From Paenibacillaceae bacterium (GTDB lineage Bacteria; Bacillota; Clostridia; Lachnospirales; Lachnospiraceae): a DNA stretch of 64,000 nucleotides. A program made the position numbers and the translations under genes. Every line of letters begins with the position of its first letter. The stretch's first letter is position 1. The stretch covers positions 1 through 64,000 of the forward strand of contig SVDU01000013.1 of NCBI GenBank assembly GCA_015057705.1. The letters run 5' to 3'. Under the pieces are notes generated by a model that had not been told where the DNA came from, did not search any database, and saw only the letters and a program-made list of their open reading frames with translations. Positions 8,047 through 15,301 of this stretch are shown one piece after another.

Positions 8047-8317
8047 ATCCGTGCGTCTCACTTTGAACCGCTATCACAGGCGTTACCCTGACAGTTAACT
8101 CGGTCCAGGCACCCTCACGGCACACAGAAGGTTCCACTTAGTGCTGCTGCATTCCTGCCCTGACACGGTTCATGAAGATCTGTTGCGTAAGACCCAAACG
8201 TCATCGTCACTTATCAGGGGCAGCCCTACAATAGCCGGCCCTGGGTGAGACATCACCCCTGCTGGAGCGGATTGCAGGTACAGGGCACCGCTATCTCCCC
8301 GGCTGCACGGAAACTTT
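8047..8317 (-). ncRNA. ffs: signal recognition particle RNA, large bacterial type
   Basis: About 270 nt on the minus strand matching the Bacillus scRNA layout. The 5' part contains the Alu-domain sequences GGGGAGATAGCGGTGCCCTG and TGCAATCCGCT. The centre has GACGTTTGGGTC. Domain IV has GTCAGGGCAGGAATGCAGCA, where a GGAA tetraloop closes a GCA/TGC stem inside the conserved asymmetric internal loop that binds Ffh. The 3' end (GCACGG) pairs with CCGTGC at the 5' end, which sets the approximate ends. The RNA forms SRP with Ffh for cotranslational targeting, and the Alu domain implies elongation retardation. It has its own promoter and terminator. Confidence 0.95.
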
Positions 8318-9644: not shown

Positions 9645-9665
9645 AGGGGGCTTTTTCAGCCCCCT
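9645..9665. terminator. shared hairpin between convergent genes
   Basis: AGGGGGCT (9645-9652) and AGCCCCCT (9658-9665) form a perfect 8-bp stem with a 5-nt loop. The stop codon of the minus-strand gene (9656-9658) lies in the loop and stem edge. The T tract is weak on both sides, so its efficiency is uncertain. Confidence 0.6.
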
Positions 9666-11449
9666 ACTTTTATATCCGTATACCAGAACCCAAAACGTCC
9701 GTCTTCCATTGGTTGATCTTTTGACAGCACAAAATTAGGAAAACCGAACATAGATGCCATATATCTTTCATTGCTGTAATAATGTCCCGGGATTCCCAGC
9801 AGATAGCGGGGAGTTCCTTCCGTGTTAAGCCTGGCGAGGATCAGATACCGGTAATTGTAGTAACCATGCAATAAGAAACTGTTATTTCCATATACCCAGG
9901 CATCTCTGGGGAGAAGACCGATATCCTGAGGCTTGATCGTCAGAATTTCACATCCATCTTCATAATCAAACGCCAGAATCCTGGTATGTTCTTTCTTTAA
10001 TTTTTCCCAGATCACACTATGTTGATTTTCTTCCTGGCTTTCATTTTGGCGCAAATGTTCCAGTACCTCCGGATCACCAAGCTTTGGTTCCGTTTGGTCT
10101 TGGTTTTTCGTTTCTTTTATTACGGCATCTGCGCGGTACAAACGGGTAGTTCCTGCTTCAGGCTCAAGAAATACATCTGCATCCTCTGCCAGATCTGCGT
10201 CGCCCGAACTCATCTGAACAGATTCTTTTAATCCGCCATCTTCCGCTTCAGACATCGTTGGCTTTGGCATTAAGGGAACAGATTCCTGCTGACTTTGCAA
10301 AACGGTCTGAGCCTCTTCGGATGGGTCTGTATGTACGGACTCTGCAGACATCGGTACCGTTGGACGCGGCGTTGGAGATGTCGGGCCGGTTGGGTTGGGC
10401 ACAGGAGGCATTGACCCTGTCGGCATTGGGGCTGTGGGCATAGTTCCGGCCGGCATTGGTGATGTCGGCATTGGCCCTGTCGGCATTGACCGTGTCGGCA
10501 TTGGCCCTGTCGGCATTGACCGTGTCGGCATTGGCCCTGTCGGCATTGACCGTGTTGGCATTGGCTCTGTCGGCATTGACCGTGTTGGCATTGGCCCTGT
10601 CGGCATTGACCGTGGCATTGCACCATTAGGTATTGGCGCTGTTGGCATTGAACCATTGGGCATTGGGGCTGTGGGCATTGGTCCTGTGGGACGCGGTTCC
10701 TGCCACCAGCCAGGAATCGGTCCGGTCATGGCCGGGCGTGTGTTTTGCTGTCTATCCGGCGCAGGCGCAGTCACTGAAGGCGGATTTCCCTGCCTCACTC
10801 CTGCTGTTGGACCGGTCATTCTGGTTTTTCCATCTTGCGGTATGGAACCTGTCATCTGCTGGATCTCAGGCATGAGACTCTCGGCCTCCGGGCTTGGCTC
10901 ACTGTCGGATGACACCGGACTCTCCGCCTGGAGAAGAACCTCTTCTTTATTTTTTGTATCCTGACTGTCTCCATCTTCCAGTGGAAACTCTTTTTCTATC
11001 TCCTGAACAGCTTTTTTGATCTGTTCTTCCGATATGGCAGAATTTTCTTTTACAGCAGAATCTGTATTTTCCAGATCAACTGCCGCCGCATGAGCAACTG
11101 CGTCCTCCCATATGGTGGTATAAGATCTCCATGTATTTTTTACATCATGTATGGTCAGTCCAAAACATTGGTCCATATTAAAACCGGAACGTTCAATATC
11201 ATTTACGGATACTGTGGCTCTGAATTCACCGGAACCGCCTCGTATGAAAATATTACCAAGGTATATTTCCTGTTCTCCGGCCAATAGATAAACTCCAATG
11301 TCGTTACCGCCTACATAAATTCTTTTCACACTTACCGTAATTTTGCACTGGATCCCTCTCGTCTCTATCTTGGCAAATCCGATGTTTTTTCCTTTGACTC
11401 CGCCTTCGTAGGCATAAATATATGAGATTAGTCTTCGATAGTTAGACAT
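9656..11449 (-). CDS. repeat-rich two-domain protein of unknown function
   Basis: A 597-residue protein with no signal peptide or membrane segment. Residues 1-110 form a predicted beta-rich domain (starts MSNYRRLISYIYAYEGG). Residues 110-230 are acidic and disordered. Residues about 230-360 are a Met-Pro-Thr-rich tract of decapeptides (TGPMPTRSMP), encoded by 30-bp near-identical DNA repeats. Residues 470-597 form a second domain with many aromatics (DAWVYGNNSFLLHGYYNYRY). From memory the C-terminal domain resembles a Lachnospiraceae family annotated as DUF6128; this needs a search. AGGAG lies 7 nt before the ATG. The gene stands alone between convergent nrdG and divergent nagB. Confidence 0.8.
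   Translation of the reverse strand: MSNYRRLISYIYAYEGGVKGKNIGFAKIETRGIQCKITVSVKRIYVGGNDIGVYLLAGEQEIYLGNIFIRGGSGEFRATVSVNDIERSGFNMDQCFGLTIHDVKNTWRSYTTIWEDAVAHAAAVDLENTDSAVKENSAISEEQIKKAVQEIEKEFPLEDGDSQDTKNKEEVLLQAESPVSSDSEPSPEAESLMPEIQQMTGSIPQDGKTRMTGPTAGVRQGNPPSVTAPAPDRQQNTRPAMTGPIPGWWQEPRPTGPMPTAPMPNGSMPTAPIPNGAMPRSMPTGPMPTRSMPTEPMPTRSMPTGPMPTRSMPTGPMPTRSMPTGPMPTSPMPAGTMPTAPMPTGSMPPVPNPTGPTSPTPRPTVPMSAESVHTDPSEEAQTVLQSQQESVPLMPKPTMSEAEDGGLKESVQMSSGDADLAEDADVFLEPEAGTTRLYRADAVIKETKNQDQTEPKLGDPEVLEHLRQNESQEENQHSVIWEKLKKEHTRILAFDYEDGCEILTIKPQDIGLLPRDAWVYGNNSFLLHGYYNYRYLILARLNTEGTPRYLLGIPGHYYSNERYMASMFGFPNFVLSKDQPMEDGRFGFWYTDIKVGG
10407..10690. repeat. 30-bp tandem repeat inside the coding sequence
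   Basis: A core of about five 30-bp units (GGCATTGGCCCTGTCGGCAT followed by TGACCGTGTC) runs from about 10467 to 10615 with only one or two base changes. Degenerate 15-bp half-units flank it from about 10407 to 10690. Each unit encodes TGPMPTRSMP on the minus strand. The near identity at DNA level implies recent slippage or unequal exchange, so copy number may vary between strains and could be affected by assembly. Confidence 0.95.
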
Positions 11450-11566: not shown

Positions 11567-12301
11567 ATGAAGCTTTACCGTGCAAAAGACTACTATGACA
11601 TGAGCCGAAAAGCAGCCAATATTATATCTGCCCAGATCATTATGAAACCAAATTGCGTTCTGGGACTTGCTACCGGTTCTACACCTGTAGGTACCTACAA
11701 ACAGCTGATTGAATGGTACAACAAAGGTGATTTGGATTTTTCCCGGGTAAAAACAGCAAACCTTGATGAATACAAGGGATTAACCAGAGACAATGACCAG
11801 AGTTACTACCACTTTATGAAGCAGAATTTATTTATGCACGTAAATATCGATGTAACCAATACCCATATACCTGATGGAATGGAATCTGATGCAGAAAAAG
11901 AAGCTGCCAGATATGAAGAGATTCTCAGAAATCTGGGCGGCATTGACTTACAGATTCTTGGACTTGGTCATAATGGGCACATCGGTTTTAATGAGCCTTC
12001 CGATATCTTCCCAAAAGATACCCACATTGTTGACTTACAGGAAAGCACCATTGAAGCCAATAAGCGTTTTTTTGAATCTGTAGATGAGGTTCCGCGCCAG
12101 GCTTATACCATGGGAATCGGTACAATTATCAGAGCGAAAAAAATCCTGTTAATGGTAAGCGGCGAAGATAAGGCTGAAATTCTGTATAATGCCCTTTGCG
12201 GTCCGGTAACTCCAAAAGTTCCTGCTTCCATACTGCAGCTCCATCCGGATGTAATTATTGTAGCCGATGAAGCAGCATTGTCAAAATGGGAAACAAACTA
12301 A
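11567..12301 (+). CDS. nagB: glucosamine-6-phosphate deaminase
   Basis: A 244-residue NagB, converting glucosamine 6-phosphate to fructose 6-phosphate and ammonia. GLATGSTPVGTY near residue 33 is the phosphate-binding loop. NLDEY at about residues 64-68 contains the catalytic Asp. GLGHNGHIGFNEP near residue 127 contains the active-site Asp/His region. Length fits the short bacterial form without the allosteric extension of E. coli NagB. The start is the ATG at 11567, because the upstream in-frame ATG at 11558 abuts the GGAGG ribosome-binding site, which sits 9 nt before 11567. No nagA or PTS gene is adjacent. Confidence 0.96.
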   Translation: MKLYRAKDYYDMSRKAANIISAQIIMKPNCVLGLATGSTPVGTYKQLIEWYNKGDLDFSRVKTANLDEYKGLTRDNDQSYYHFMKQNLFMHVNIDVTNTHIPDGMESDAEKEAARYEEILRNLGGIDLQILGLGHNGHIGFNEPSDIFPKDTHIVDLQESTIEANKRFFESVDEVPRQAYTMGIGTIIRAKKILLMVSGEDKAEILYNALCGPVTPKVPASILQLHPDVIIVADEAALSKWETN

Positions 12302-12303
12302 TC

Positions 12304-12332
12304 TTGACGTAAATTGCTTACAATGATATAAT
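12304..12332 (+). promoter_or_regulatory. consensus promoter of the ABC-2 exporter leader
   Basis: TTGACG (12304-12309), exactly 17 bp, TATAAT (12327-12332). It starts 3 nt after the nagB stop codon. Predicted transcription start is near 12340, giving a leader of about 315 nt before the first exporter gene. Confidence 0.85.
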
Positions 12333-12364
12333 GAGTTAAATTTTTTTAAAGGAGGTGAGACGCT

Positions 12365-12517
12365 GTGGGAAATATATCTATTAAAGCTACTTCATTATGG
12401 ACTAATATTAATAATATATCTGCTGTTTTCGGTAATTTTGACGCGTCCGTGTATCAGTGCGCCCATTTTTACGAAAAAGGCAGCGTCTCATCTGAAAATT
12501 ATTCTGTTAGCCGGTAG
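12365..12517 (+). CDS. possible 50-codon leader peptide
   Basis: An in-frame GTG start with AAAGGAGGTGA about 9 nt upstream opens a 50-codon frame ending in TAG at 12515-12517. The peptide is rich in Asn, Ser and aromatic residues and has no recognisable domain. Its start codon lies at the 3' end of one arm of the 10-nt inverted repeat and its 3' part contains the other arm, so translation would disrupt the closed structure and could affect the downstream terminator. It may be a regulatory uORF, or the frame may be incidental to a structured RNA. Confidence 0.4.
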   Translation: MGNISIKATSLWTNINNISAVFGNFDASVYQCAHFYEKGSVSSENYSVSR

Positions 12518-12549
12518 GCTTTACCACTGGTTTTTCGGTTGATTTTCCG

Positions 12550-12577
12550 CCCGGATGCTCCTGCACCGGGTTTTTTT
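12550..12577 (+). terminator. leader terminator before the ABC-2 exporter
   Basis: CCCGG (12550-12554) pairs with CCGGG (12566-12570), with an A/A mismatch then TGC/GCA above it, followed by seven T (12571-12577). It lies 80 nt before the first exporter gene, so read-through must occur for expression. Confidence 0.8.
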
Positions 12578-12656
12578 GTGCGTTTTTTTCGAAATGGCAG
12601 TCTGAACGGACATTTTCCACTTTGATTCTAAACACACAATATGGAGGAAATGACCT

Positions 12657-13487
12657 ATGAAACAGGTAAAAACCATTCTGTCCGGCTGCGGCTCTCTCTC
12701 AAGAGTCGTATGCTCCACAACTTTAATCTGCTCGAAACAAATTTTTGACGGAGGCTTTCTCTGTGTAGCTGGAGGATACGTTGTCCAGATTGTCCAGTTC
12801 ATTATGCTGACCTTTATCTGGAAGACTTTGGCCAGCACAAATGCTCTGCCAACAAACGTATCTTTGGACCAGTTAATGACCTACACGCTGATGTCTGCTG
12901 TATTACATGTGGAATTAAATATTATTTCTCCCGCCACTTCGTCCTTGTGGGAGGGATCCGTCATTGGGCGTTTTTTAAGGCCCATGGCAATTGAAGCAAG
13001 CTTTATTTCAGAAACCATTGGCCGATTCTGGGTTCCCAACTTCTTATTTCTGGGTATTCCTTTATTGCTTTTTGCACCAGTTCTGTCTGTCAGTCCATTG
13101 CCTGCTTCTTTCCGTATGGGAATTCTCTCTCTCATAAGCCTGCTGCTGGCTATTTGTATTGGATTTGCCATAGATTTGCTTTTCGCTTCTCTGGCCATGA
13201 ATCTGAAAAATGGATGCTTTGCGGCTCTTGCGGTCAGAGAGGCGGTTTATTCCCTGCTTTCCGGAGAAATGATACCATTTTCTTTATTTCCAAAGAAATT
13301 GGGAACGCTTTTTTCCCTGCTTCCATTGGGCTCAGTCGCCCATGGACCTTTAACCATCTACACCGGCACCGCCCATTTCCCTCACAGGGTTCTGGCGCTT
13401 CAGTTTTTCTGGACTGTTAGTTTATGGGCTCTTGCTATTTACGTATTTAATAAAAGCAAAGAAAGGATGATCTCTTTTGGTGGATAA
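12657..13487 (+). CDS. ABC-2 type exporter permease, first subunit
   Basis: A 276-residue integral membrane protein with about six hydrophobic segments (about residues 37-57, 65-80, 125-150, 158-185, 200-225, 245-265). The overall pattern matches ABC-2 permeases paired with a COG4586-type ATPase. The substrate is unknown; such three-gene systems are often drug or lipid exporters. GGAGG lies 9 nt before the ATG. It overlaps the second permease gene by 11 nt, so the two are probably translationally coupled and form a heterodimeric channel. Expression is probably controlled by the leader at 12340-12600. Confidence 0.85.
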   Translation: MKQVKTILSGCGSLSRVVCSTTLICSKQIFDGGFLCVAGGYVVQIVQFIMLTFIWKTLASTNALPTNVSLDQLMTYTLMSAVLHVELNIISPATSSLWEGSVIGRFLRPMAIEASFISETIGRFWVPNFLFLGIPLLLFAPVLSVSPLPASFRMGILSLISLLLAICIGFAIDLLFASLAMNLKNGCFAALAVREAVYSLLSGEMIPFSLFPKKLGTLFSLLPLGSVAHGPLTIYTGTAHFPHRVLALQFFWTVSLWALAIYVFNKSKERMISFGG

Positions 13488-14337
13488 TTTTAAAATATTA
13501 ATCAGGCTTTACAGGCAATATGCAAAAATGGATTTATTATGGTTTCTACGGGATACCCGTTATTTCTTTATTCAACTGGTCTCTGATGTTGTTAGTTGTG
13601 GCTGCACCATTGCAGGTGTCTGCCTGTTATCCGCAAATTTTAAAAACTTTTCCGGTATGACCCAAAATGAAATTTTATTTATGATGGGTTACGCTCTCTT
13701 TATTGACGGTATTTTCATGGTATTTTTTATGGGCAATAATACCGGCATGGTCAGCCGGATTATTGGCCGTGGGCAGCTTGACCACATAATGATTCAGCCT
13801 GTCCCTCTGTGGGCAGAACTTCTGGCACAGGGTTTTTCCCCTGTTTCTGGTTCTCCCATCATGATTTTCGGAACAGGGCTTACTGCTTACAGTGCCATAA
13901 GAGCTGGTTTACCTATAAATGCTTTTACTTTATTGCTGTTTCTTTTTTACAGCATTTGCTCAATTATCATTGTAATGTCATTTATCTATCTGATTTCCTG
14001 CTCTGCGTTCTATGCCCCTGCTGCTGCAGAGGAGATTGCTGGCGTGGGCAAGGAATTATTTTCTTCATTAAAAACTTACCCGCTGGGTAATATGAAAGGC
14101 TTTCAAAAACACATTTTTTTGTCCTTGATTCCTGTGGGACTTTGTGCCTGGCTTCCTTCCACACTTTTAATAAAAGCTGGGAAATACGGATTAGAGGAAG
14201 TTTTCGTTCCGGAAGCGTTCTATCTGCCTATTGCAGCCGCAATTTTTTCTATTATAGCAATTATCACATTCAGGAAAGGAATGAAATATTATGAAACCTA
14301 TGGTTCTCCAAGATACTCCGGCTTTGGCCATCGATAA
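13477..14337 (+). CDS. ABC-2 type exporter permease, second subunit
   Basis: A 286-residue membrane protein of the ABC-2 class, with about six hydrophobic segments including ones near residues 30-55, 65-90, 145-180 and 240-265. It begins with GTG inside the 3' end of the first permease gene. The segment IIGRGQLDHIMIQPVPLWAELL resembles the cytoplasmic loop of this permease family (PF06182-like, from memory). It pairs with the permease at 12657 and the ATPase at 14291. The 47-nt overlap with the ATPase gene again suggests coupled translation. Confidence 0.85.
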   Translation: MVDNFKILIRLYRQYAKMDLLWFLRDTRYFFIQLVSDVVSCGCTIAGVCLLSANFKNFSGMTQNEILFMMGYALFIDGIFMVFFMGNNTGMVSRIIGRGQLDHIMIQPVPLWAELLAQGFSPVSGSPIMIFGTGLTAYSAIRAGLPINAFTLLLFLFYSICSIIIVMSFIYLISCSAFYAPAAAEEIAGVGKELFSSLKTYPLGNMKGFQKHIFLSLIPVGLCAWLPSTLLIKAGKYGLEEVFVPEAFYLPIAAAIFSIIAIITFRKGMKYYETYGSPRYSGFGHR

Positions 14338-15301
14338 TATAACAAAAGAATACTGCCAGTGGCAGCGAAGCGGCAATGCCCGCGACATTATTAAAAATCT
14401 TCTTCACCCGGATAAGCGAGTGGTAACAGCTCTTGATCACGTATCGCTTGAGGTAAAGAAAGGGGAATTCGTGGCTTATGCAGGTGCCAATGGTGCCGGT
14501 AAAAGCACTACAATAAAAATTCTTTCCGGTATTCTCATGCCTACAGAAGGAACGGTATCTGTACTGGGATTAAATCCTGCCAAAGACCGGATCAGACTCA
14601 TGAGCCATATCGGAGTCCTGTTTGGTCAGCGTACAGAATTATGGTGGGACCATCCGGTGATATCCAGCTTCCAATGGAAAAAGGAGGTATGGAACATTCC
14701 GGATTCCGTTTACAAAAAGAATCTGGATATGGTTACAGATCTTTTGGATCTTTCCGATATTCTAAAAACCTTTACCAGGGAGCTGAGTCTTGGGCAGCGA
14801 ATGCGGGCGGATATCGCCATGCTTCTGCTTCACAGTCCGGAACTGATTTTTCTTGATGAGCCCACACTTGGTCTTGATGTACTTGCCAAGCAGCAGATGA
14901 TCCGGTTTTTAAAGATGATTAACCTTGAAAACAAAACAACCGTGGTGGTAACCAGCCATGATATGGACGATCTGGAGGAAATGGCCCAGAGAATCATTCT
15001 TATTAACAAGGGGAAAATTGCATTTGACGGTGACTTTGATGAACTACGAAATGTGATGGGAGGCTTTTACCGGATTGTCCTTACTACGGAAAAAGAAGAG
15101 ACACCACTTTCCATTCCGGGTATGTGGCTTTTAAAAACAGAAAGCGGTGTACACGAATACGAATTTGACCGGAATGTACTAGGAATCCATAAGGTTATGG
15201 GGTTACTTTCTGAATTTTCCCAGATCCTTGATATGGAAATTAAAAAGGCACCCATTGAAGATGTAGTGGCTAATTTATATCTGAGCTGGCGTGAAAATTA
15301 A
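14291..15301 (+). CDS. ABC-2 exporter ATP-binding protein
   Basis: A 336-residue ATPase. Walker A GANGAGKSTT is at about residues 69-78, the Q-loop region contains FGQRTELWWD, the signature is LSLGQRMRAD (a variant of LSGGQ) near 170, Walker B LIFLDEPTLGLD near 191, and the H-loop TSHDMDD near 222. The C-terminal 80 residues are an extension typical of COG4586-type (YadG/NatA-like) ATPases. AGGAAAGGA lies 10 nt before the ATG. Together with the two permeases it makes a complete exporter. Confidence 0.92.
   Translation: MKPMVLQDTPALAIDNITKEYCQWQRSGNARDIIKNLLHPDKRVVTALDHVSLEVKKGEFVAYAGANGAGKSTTIKILSGILMPTEGTVSVLGLNPAKDRIRLMSHIGVLFGQRTELWWDHPVISSFQWKKEVWNIPDSVYKKNLDMVTDLLDLSDILKTFTRELSLGQRMRADIAMLLLHSPELIFLDEPTLGLDVLAKQQMIRFLKMINLENKTTVVVTSHDMDDLEEMAQRIILINKGKIAFDGDFDELRNVMGGFYRIVLTTEKEETPLSIPGMWLLKTESGVHEYEFDRNVLGIHKVMGLLSEFSQILDMEIKKAPIEDVVANLYLSWREN

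Follow-up and report, generated by a model that had tools for sequence, protein, structure and literature searches.

A putative ribosome-controlled attenuator with a long, end-paired uORF precedes an ABC-2 exporter in Lachnospiraceae and relatives

The leader between a nagB-like gene (ending at 12301) and the genes of an ABC-2 exporter (12657-15301) is probably a ribosome-controlled transcription attenuator of the vmlR/bmrCD type, in which a single long upstream open reading frame (uORF) has paired ends. The probability assigned to this reading is roughly 0.7. Comparison of related leaders shows conservation of the uORF, of the helix that joins its ends (P1) and of a putative terminator (T2). 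Stalling would be the signal, a ribosome-targeting drug the cue and readthrough into the exporter genes the outcome. All features of the leader and exporter lie on the plus strand, and their positions are those of the window, the whole 64,000-nucleotide stretch of DNA analysed.

Structure of the locus

A preliminary description of this DNA had listed a promoter, a strong Shine-Dalgarno (SD) sequence, a GTG-started frame of 50 codons, a 10-nucleotide inverted repeat and two hairpins, and all of these were found where it placed them. The promoter (TTGACG-17-TATAAT, 12304-12332) matches the consensus at 11 of 12 positions and has TG ahead of the -10 element. Counting both strands, 12250-12700 contains three promoter-like sites, where shuffled sequences average 1.2, and counterparts of the promoter are present in an 18-leader alignment, in which L028 is truncated by the contig end. 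The SD AAAGGAGGTGA (12348-12358; GGAGGTG in 17 of 17 alignment rows) is followed by the uORF (12365-12517), whose GTG start is replaced by ATG in more distant relatives. Segment 1, the 5' arm of P1 (12353-12366), holds the SD, the spacer and the start codon, and segment 2, the 3' arm (12480-12493), lies within uORF codons 39-43. The most conserved nucleotide block, TCCGTGTATCAGTGCGCCCATTTTTACGA (12446-12474), consists of a small hairpin and a U-tract. A candidate antiterminator strand was placed at 12478-12488, with its partner at 12553-12562.

Two hairpins follow P1. The first, P2 (12494-12547, predicted by folding), includes the uORF stop codon and is a putative weak terminator, T1; the second, T2 (12550-12577 with its U-tract), is made of segments 3 and 4 (12550-12570) and seven T, and its pairs are changed on both sides in relatives. 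These hairpins correspond to the one weak and one good terminator of the earlier view; a simple terminator scan reported none of the hairpins of the leader. The predicted RNA fold of 12334-12580 contains P1, the stop-codon hairpin 12494-12547 and T2 at -70.7 kcal/mol (z -3.39; equalled by 0 of 200 shuffles). A second T-rich stretch, GTGCGTTTTTTTCGAAA, past the U-tract of T2 (12571-12595), resembles the uORF block GTGCGCCCATTTTTACGAAA, and similar stretches occur in several relatives.

The exporter is encoded by two ABC-2 type permease genes and an ATPase gene. Permease 1 (12657-13487) had no Pfam or NCBIfam match at E <= 1, permease 2 (13477-14337) matches PF06182 ABC2_membrane_6 (84.8 bits, gathering cut-off 22), and the ABC ATPase gene spans 14291-15301. 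The exporter may be of the kind called 'viologen exporter-like'. Elsewhere in the window, a minus-strand ORF of 597 residues (9656-11449) carries a long run of GPMPTRSMPT-like repeats, and the large bacterial SRP RNA is found on the minus strand at 8049-8310 (Rfam RF01854, 192.8 bits).

Distribution of the leader

Among 25 genomes of the same genus, the exporter (at least 67% identity) was found in 17 and the leader in the same 17, and 8 have neither. The two may have come or gone as a unit. Leader DNA has matches in 18 of the 25, and the additional match (L018 in G006) is only a T2-like terminator after nagB. In that exporter-less genome, the order is nagB, the T2-like terminator (L018:1380-1760) and a gene that starts like the window's gene 3' of the exporter.

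The family search covered 397 genomes; Lacrimispora belongs to Lachnospiraceae. It gave nine exporter matches at 1e-20: the window, one of the same genus and seven from six other genera. These seven are 31-62% identical, and all have a uORF leader directly upstream (L020/L041, L021, L075, L135, L169, L170, L171). In the order (392 genomes) there were twelve matches at 1e-25, of which five belong to the window and its own genus. Each of the remaining seven (32-36% identity) has the leader, directly upstream in L159, L160 and L164 and before an intervening ABC-F gene in L191-L194; that of L159 was called by SD, uORF and motif only, because its pairing is not significant. The phylum (299 genomes) gave five matches at 1e-25, with a leader in one of the four non-own loci (L165). 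In L166-L168, outside the order, none was seen by eye upstream of the exporter match. Weak exporter paralogues (22-27% identity) were left out of the leader search.

The leader also occurs before genes for ABC-F proteins. When the core motif of the block was searched in 59 genomes with two mismatches allowed, it gave 19 places, spread over 14 genomes; the reversed pattern gave 13. All four perfect matches are leaders: three, all from one genus, precede the exporter (L179 and L171 being the same leader), and the fourth (L185/L195 in G242) stands before an ABC-F gene. Within 845 bases behind that ABC-F gene, no other frame of at least 150 codons was found on its strand. In L191-L194 (G401, G335, G321, G445) the leader precedes an ABC-F gene with an exporter gene directly behind it. 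The ABC-F proteins of L191, L192, L194 and L195 all exceed the NCBIfam ribosomal protection-like cut-off (419-500 bits against 380), and among the best 25 models for each, no named resistance type was reached at its own cut-off. An exporter lies next to the ABC-F gene in three of the four scanned loci and in a fifth, unscanned one. An ABC-F gene and an ABC-2 exporter behind one leader look like a two-layer resistance operon.

Several other matches were discarded. The remaining 15 motif places are chance or other genes. One of them (L174) is an unrelated erm-like methyltransferase gene, which has a leader peptide MTHSIRLRFPTLNQ with an RLR motif and a terminator-like GGGATTAGTCTGTCCTTTTTT resembling the block motif. 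The short DNA matches L018 and L022-L025 are not leaders. A two-mismatch pattern had 66 places, and the 11 loci examined were two known leaders and nine other genes or chance hits. A uORF profile (HMM) found four leaders (L072-L075); of its 26 other matches, four were examined and contained no leader. In plasmids neither the window leader nor, at 1e-20, the exporter was found, and the plasmid match L199 lies immediately after a transposase-like frame and is no leader. The L194 leader was not found in phages, nor were two ABC-F-type strings in IMG/VR.

Pairing of the two uORF ends

The inverted repeat noticed earlier (12356-12365/12481-12490) is perfect, and with two G-U pairs it grows to the 14-bp P1 (12353-12366/12480-12493), which covers the SD in part, together with two bases of the GTG start. 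The pairing energy of the SD-to-start region with the second half of the uORF is better than in synonymous recodings (p <= 0.05) in 18 of 20 leaders. Under a second null, recoding with uniform codon use, 11 of 13 leaders pass (p 0.003 for the window leader) and L159 (0.33) and L160 (0.11) fail. When segment 1 was extended to codon 4 and dinucleotide shuffles served as the null, 15 of 19 leaders passed (failures: L032, L033, L160, L164). Combined by Fisher's method over eight dissimilar leaders, the value is 1.8e-8, and when partners were permuted among nine leaders the true ones were best in sum (p 5e-5); Fisher's method assumes independence and the leaders are related, so these two values are fairer than those over 12 or 13 leaders, which overstate the case. 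As a control, 27 SD-led starts of ORFs of at least 150 codons in the window were treated likewise, and 7% reached p <= 0.05 (median p 0.55).

The arm sequences diverge between lineages and the pairing persists: the arms are GGTGAGACGCTG/CAGCGTCTCATC in the window, AAGCACATG/CATGTGCTT in L170, GGACCTTG/CAAGGTCC in L165 and, with a bulge, GGTATGAAACAATC/GATTGTTTTGAATGCC in L135. From a 17-leader alignment RNAalifold recovered P1 and T2 unaided, plus two further small helices. Six of the 15 P1/T2 pairs are changed on both sides, a number reached by 0 of 500 shuffles, and 95.7% of the cells are paired against 26-50% for slid partners. P1/T2 also exceed all 500 shuffles in covariation score, in percentage paired and in each of the two counts of two-sided changes. 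Neither the repeat nor the terminator is lost in these relatives, where both P1 and T2 persist with compensating changes. The pairing over the uORF start, a candidate anti-antiterminator, is therefore conserved; it fails in L159 and is marginal in L160.

Reading frame and conserved block

The uORF has 50 codons in L075 and in every leader of an 18-row alignment, 52 in L021, L169 and L170, and 35-79 across 20 leaders. None of the 20 has lost the SD, the start or the open frame through segment 2; in L159 the last bases of segment 2 fall past the stop. Along the frame, pN/pS in 11 representatives takes the values 0.58 (codons 2-8), 0.43 (codons 9-15), 0.84 (codons 16-27), 1.34 (codons 28-37) and 1.23 (codons 38-43). 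Codons 28-37 have a pS of 0.09 and a pN of 0.12, and such a low pS suggests that the block is conserved as a nucleotide sequence. Its core, GCC[CT][AT]TTTT, occurs in 18 of 20 uORFs (missing from L164 and L165) against 0.08 expected from mononucleotide shuffling, although the leaders are related and not independent. The string common to nearly all leaders is only about nine bases long.

The frame in which the block is read varies. In L135, L192 and L193 translation of its nucleotides is shifted by one base, so that VCPF takes the place of xA[HL]F, and the common string GATTGTTTTGAATGCCTGTCACC is translated in different frames by L135 and L195. This suggests that the RNA and the openness of the frame are kept while the peptide changes. 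The block precedes segment 2 by a few codons in most leaders and by about 25 codons in L159. Its hairpin (-4.7 kcal/mol) is among the best 2% of 22-nucleotide windows in the window uORF and ordinary in several relatives; that the hairpin at 12446-12474 pauses the polymerase is a guess. The motif GCCC[A/T]TTTT occurs twice in the same uORF in L194 (870-1190) and L160, and in L194 the second of these copies (GGGCAGTCTGCCCTTTTT) resembles a terminator hairpin within the ORF. A hydrophobic +1 frame from CTG 12363 to TGA 12540, with a frameshift over T1, was also considered. It is open in the window, L033 and L169 and broken in 13 of 16 leaders, and was rejected.

T2 and its alternative partner

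T2 is kept with compensating changes in the 17-leader alignment, and a putative intrinsic terminator is found between the uORF and the gene; the terminator after nagB may be its origin. In 14 of 22 leaders (10 of 16 once near-identical copies are removed), the stretch that best complements the first part of T2 is in segment 2 or immediately next to it, and in L021 there is a tie. It lies elsewhere in L041, L038, L037, L039, L169, L170 and L171, the T2 hairpin used for L171 having later been judged wrong. The pairing of segment 2 with segment 3 (2:3) reaches p <= 0.05 in 7 of 19 leaders and <= 0.1 in 12 of 19, with a Fisher value of 6.1e-5 over eight dissimilar leaders and 1e-4 by partner permutation. 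In the window leader (12478-12488/12553-12562) the p values are 0.009, 0.036 and 0.076 by three nulls and 0.098 by a fourth, and the true terminator ranks 4th of 9 against foreign ones. The 2:3 pairing thus appears to be supported across lineages and weak in the window leader itself.

The ABC-F-type leaders L191 and L195, together with L135 before the exporter, probably make the best case for 2:3. In these three, segment 2 (GATTGTTTTG) complements both codons 2-4 (AAACAATC) and the T2 loop CAAAACARTC, and variants of this double complementarity occur in L192, where both sides are changed, and L194. An alternative antiterminator may be formed by 12442-12448, which is the best complement of T2 in L041, L038, L037 and L039 and the second best in L001, L030, L027, L031, L032, L033 and L036. 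The sequence CCGGTA at the uORF stop, present in 18 of 18 alignment rows, was dropped as an antiterminator, since it is missing in L021, L169, L075 and L170.

Proposed mechanism and alternatives

In the proposed attenuator, segment 1 (in ABC-F relatives with codons 2-4 added) would pair with segment 2. This 1:2 helix would act as an anti-antiterminator, leaving T2 (3:4) free to form and the exporter off. A ribosome would be held on segment 1 by a drug that acts at the start codon or at one of the early codons, or because ribosomes queue behind a stalled one. With segment 1 occupied, segment 2 could catch the nascent first part of T2 (2:3), so that polymerase would read through and the exporter would be made. 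A freely translating ribosome would clear segment 1 and cross segment 2, and T2 would form. Occupancy by ribosomes would therefore alter the fold of the leader, as had been suggested. In this leader the uORF is long and ends at segment 2 or a little past it. Through queues that reach back to segment 1, stalls anywhere before segment 2 could be sensed, and the leader would be a sensor of ribosome transit.

The scheme was examined with a fold model that keeps the footprint of a ribosome unpaired. For the window leader, the predicted number of pairs between the uORF and an unfinished T2 rises from 0.0 with no ribosome to 9.6 when the start is masked, and stays at 0.0 when the stop region is masked. 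With the start masked, at least 2 pairs are gained in 16 of 18 leaders and almost none in L075 and L170, in a model run without a shuffle control. At equilibrium the completed T2 wins in 18 of 18 leaders at every ribosome position tried (P >= 0.77). In this model 2:3 could therefore act only kinetically, and the switch, if real, would be a kinetic one.

The preliminary description had left two readings open, translation-sensing attenuation as at antibiotic-responsive exporters and an aptamer of an unassigned class, to be separated by covariation of the stems or conservation of the peptide. The outcome was mixed: the stem covaries strongly and the SD and open frame are always kept, but the peptide is not conserved. 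Openness kept with a changeable peptide fits a sensor of ribosome transit, and attenuation is the better supported of the two. An unassigned aptamer with an incidental ORF is very unlikely. Its closing stem would covary, as P1 does, and would enclose a conserved nucleotide block, but the SD, start and open frame persist in 20 of 20 leaders while length and peptide vary, and the only near-universal string is the nine or so bases of the block. Minimum-energy folds compared by eye likewise have no common interior. The leader had not been recognised as a known riboswitch, and Rfam agrees: no family matched 12340-12650 at its gathering score, and the lowest E value below it was 0.96, at chance level and far under that score.

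If ribosomes stalled inside the block (codons 28-37), at a motif of the nascent peptide or of the codons like those in erm/TlrB-type leaders, P1 would be melted or segment 2 masked. This reading is unlikely, though it deserves more weight than the aptamer: the block is the most conserved part and in most leaders stands shortly before segment 2, but non-synonymous changes are as common there as synonymous ones and three leaders read it in another frame. A ribosome on segment 2 would presumably hinder 2:3 as well. That the 50-residue peptide is itself an exporter cargo or a functional small protein is highly improbable. The constant 50 codons of the 18-row alignment and the low pN/pS of codons 9-15 would suit a peptide product, yet the peptides encoded before homologous exporters are unrelated and 35-79 residues long, segment 2 and the motif are conserved whatever the frame, and putative terminators separate the ORF from the exporter. 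Hardly credible at all is a set of ordinary intergenic terminators with a spurious ORF; T2 does resemble the post-nagB terminator of the exporter-less genome, but the leader is found only with the exporter, P1 covaries, and SD and ORF are conserved.

A broader proposal going beyond the attenuator is held tentatively, at somewhat less than even odds. The leader would be a separate class of antibiotic-sensing leaders, found in several families within the order and on at least one occasion outside it, and common to ABC-F and ABC-2 exporter genes. Start-to-end pairing of a long uORF would report any failure of transit, whatever the drug or peptide, and the frame-independent GCCC[A/T]TTTT hairpin with its U-tract would be a programmed polymerase pause for timing.

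Comparison with known systems

No report of this leader was found in the literature covered, and in the one paper examined among the matches to leader peptide strings, the string was a primer name. The closest likenesses are to vmlR and bmrCD of Bacillus subtilis. Experiments on vmlR support an order of anti-antiterminator, antiterminator and terminator, with trapped initiating ribosomes blocking the anti-antiterminator (PMC9226507). Its leader likewise has the uORF start in the anti-antiterminator, an alternative antiterminator, an intrinsic terminator and a gene of the ABC-F kind. However, the vmlR uORF has three codons (MIN), whereas here it has 35-79 and both anti-antiterminator strands are the two ends of one uORF.

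A comparable attenuation logic has been proposed for bmrCD (PMC4191407). The bmrB-bmrCD locus has a 53-residue GTG-started ORF, three alternative stem-loops and an ABC exporter downstream, and is induced by lincomycin, erythromycin and chloramphenicol. The three structures lie in nucleotides 60-162 of bmrB, and the likeness to the present leader is drawn from the described layout. In the window leader, unlike bmrB, the SD and start codon supply one strand, and T2 is located past the stop codon.

For cplR of Clostridioides the predicted fold has a 5' hairpin hiding the uORF, a terminator and an antiterminator; stalling was essential for induction and premature termination was not (PMC10201436). 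The cplR uORF differs in having three codons (MR[I/M]), and its terminator also hides the main SD. With its 35-79 codons, the uORF described here falls outside the short ARE-ABCF leader type (MIN, MR[I/M], MAGN; about three to four codons). The toiL uORF of topAI in Escherichia coli is similar in its reported sensing of several drug classes, with stalls at various codons including the start, but it works on translation and Rho termination and without an intrinsic terminator (PMC12121999).

The leader predicts that a poorly characterised family of ABC-2 exporters responds to ribosome-targeting drugs and ties that exporter to ABC-F ribosome protection. It also allows a long uORF to be tested as a general sensor of ribosome transit against a sensor of a single drug. 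Judged from sequence comparison, the leader is most likely a built-in switch common to the exporter and to the ribosome-protection genes of its relatives, and a variant of known antibiotic-responsive control.
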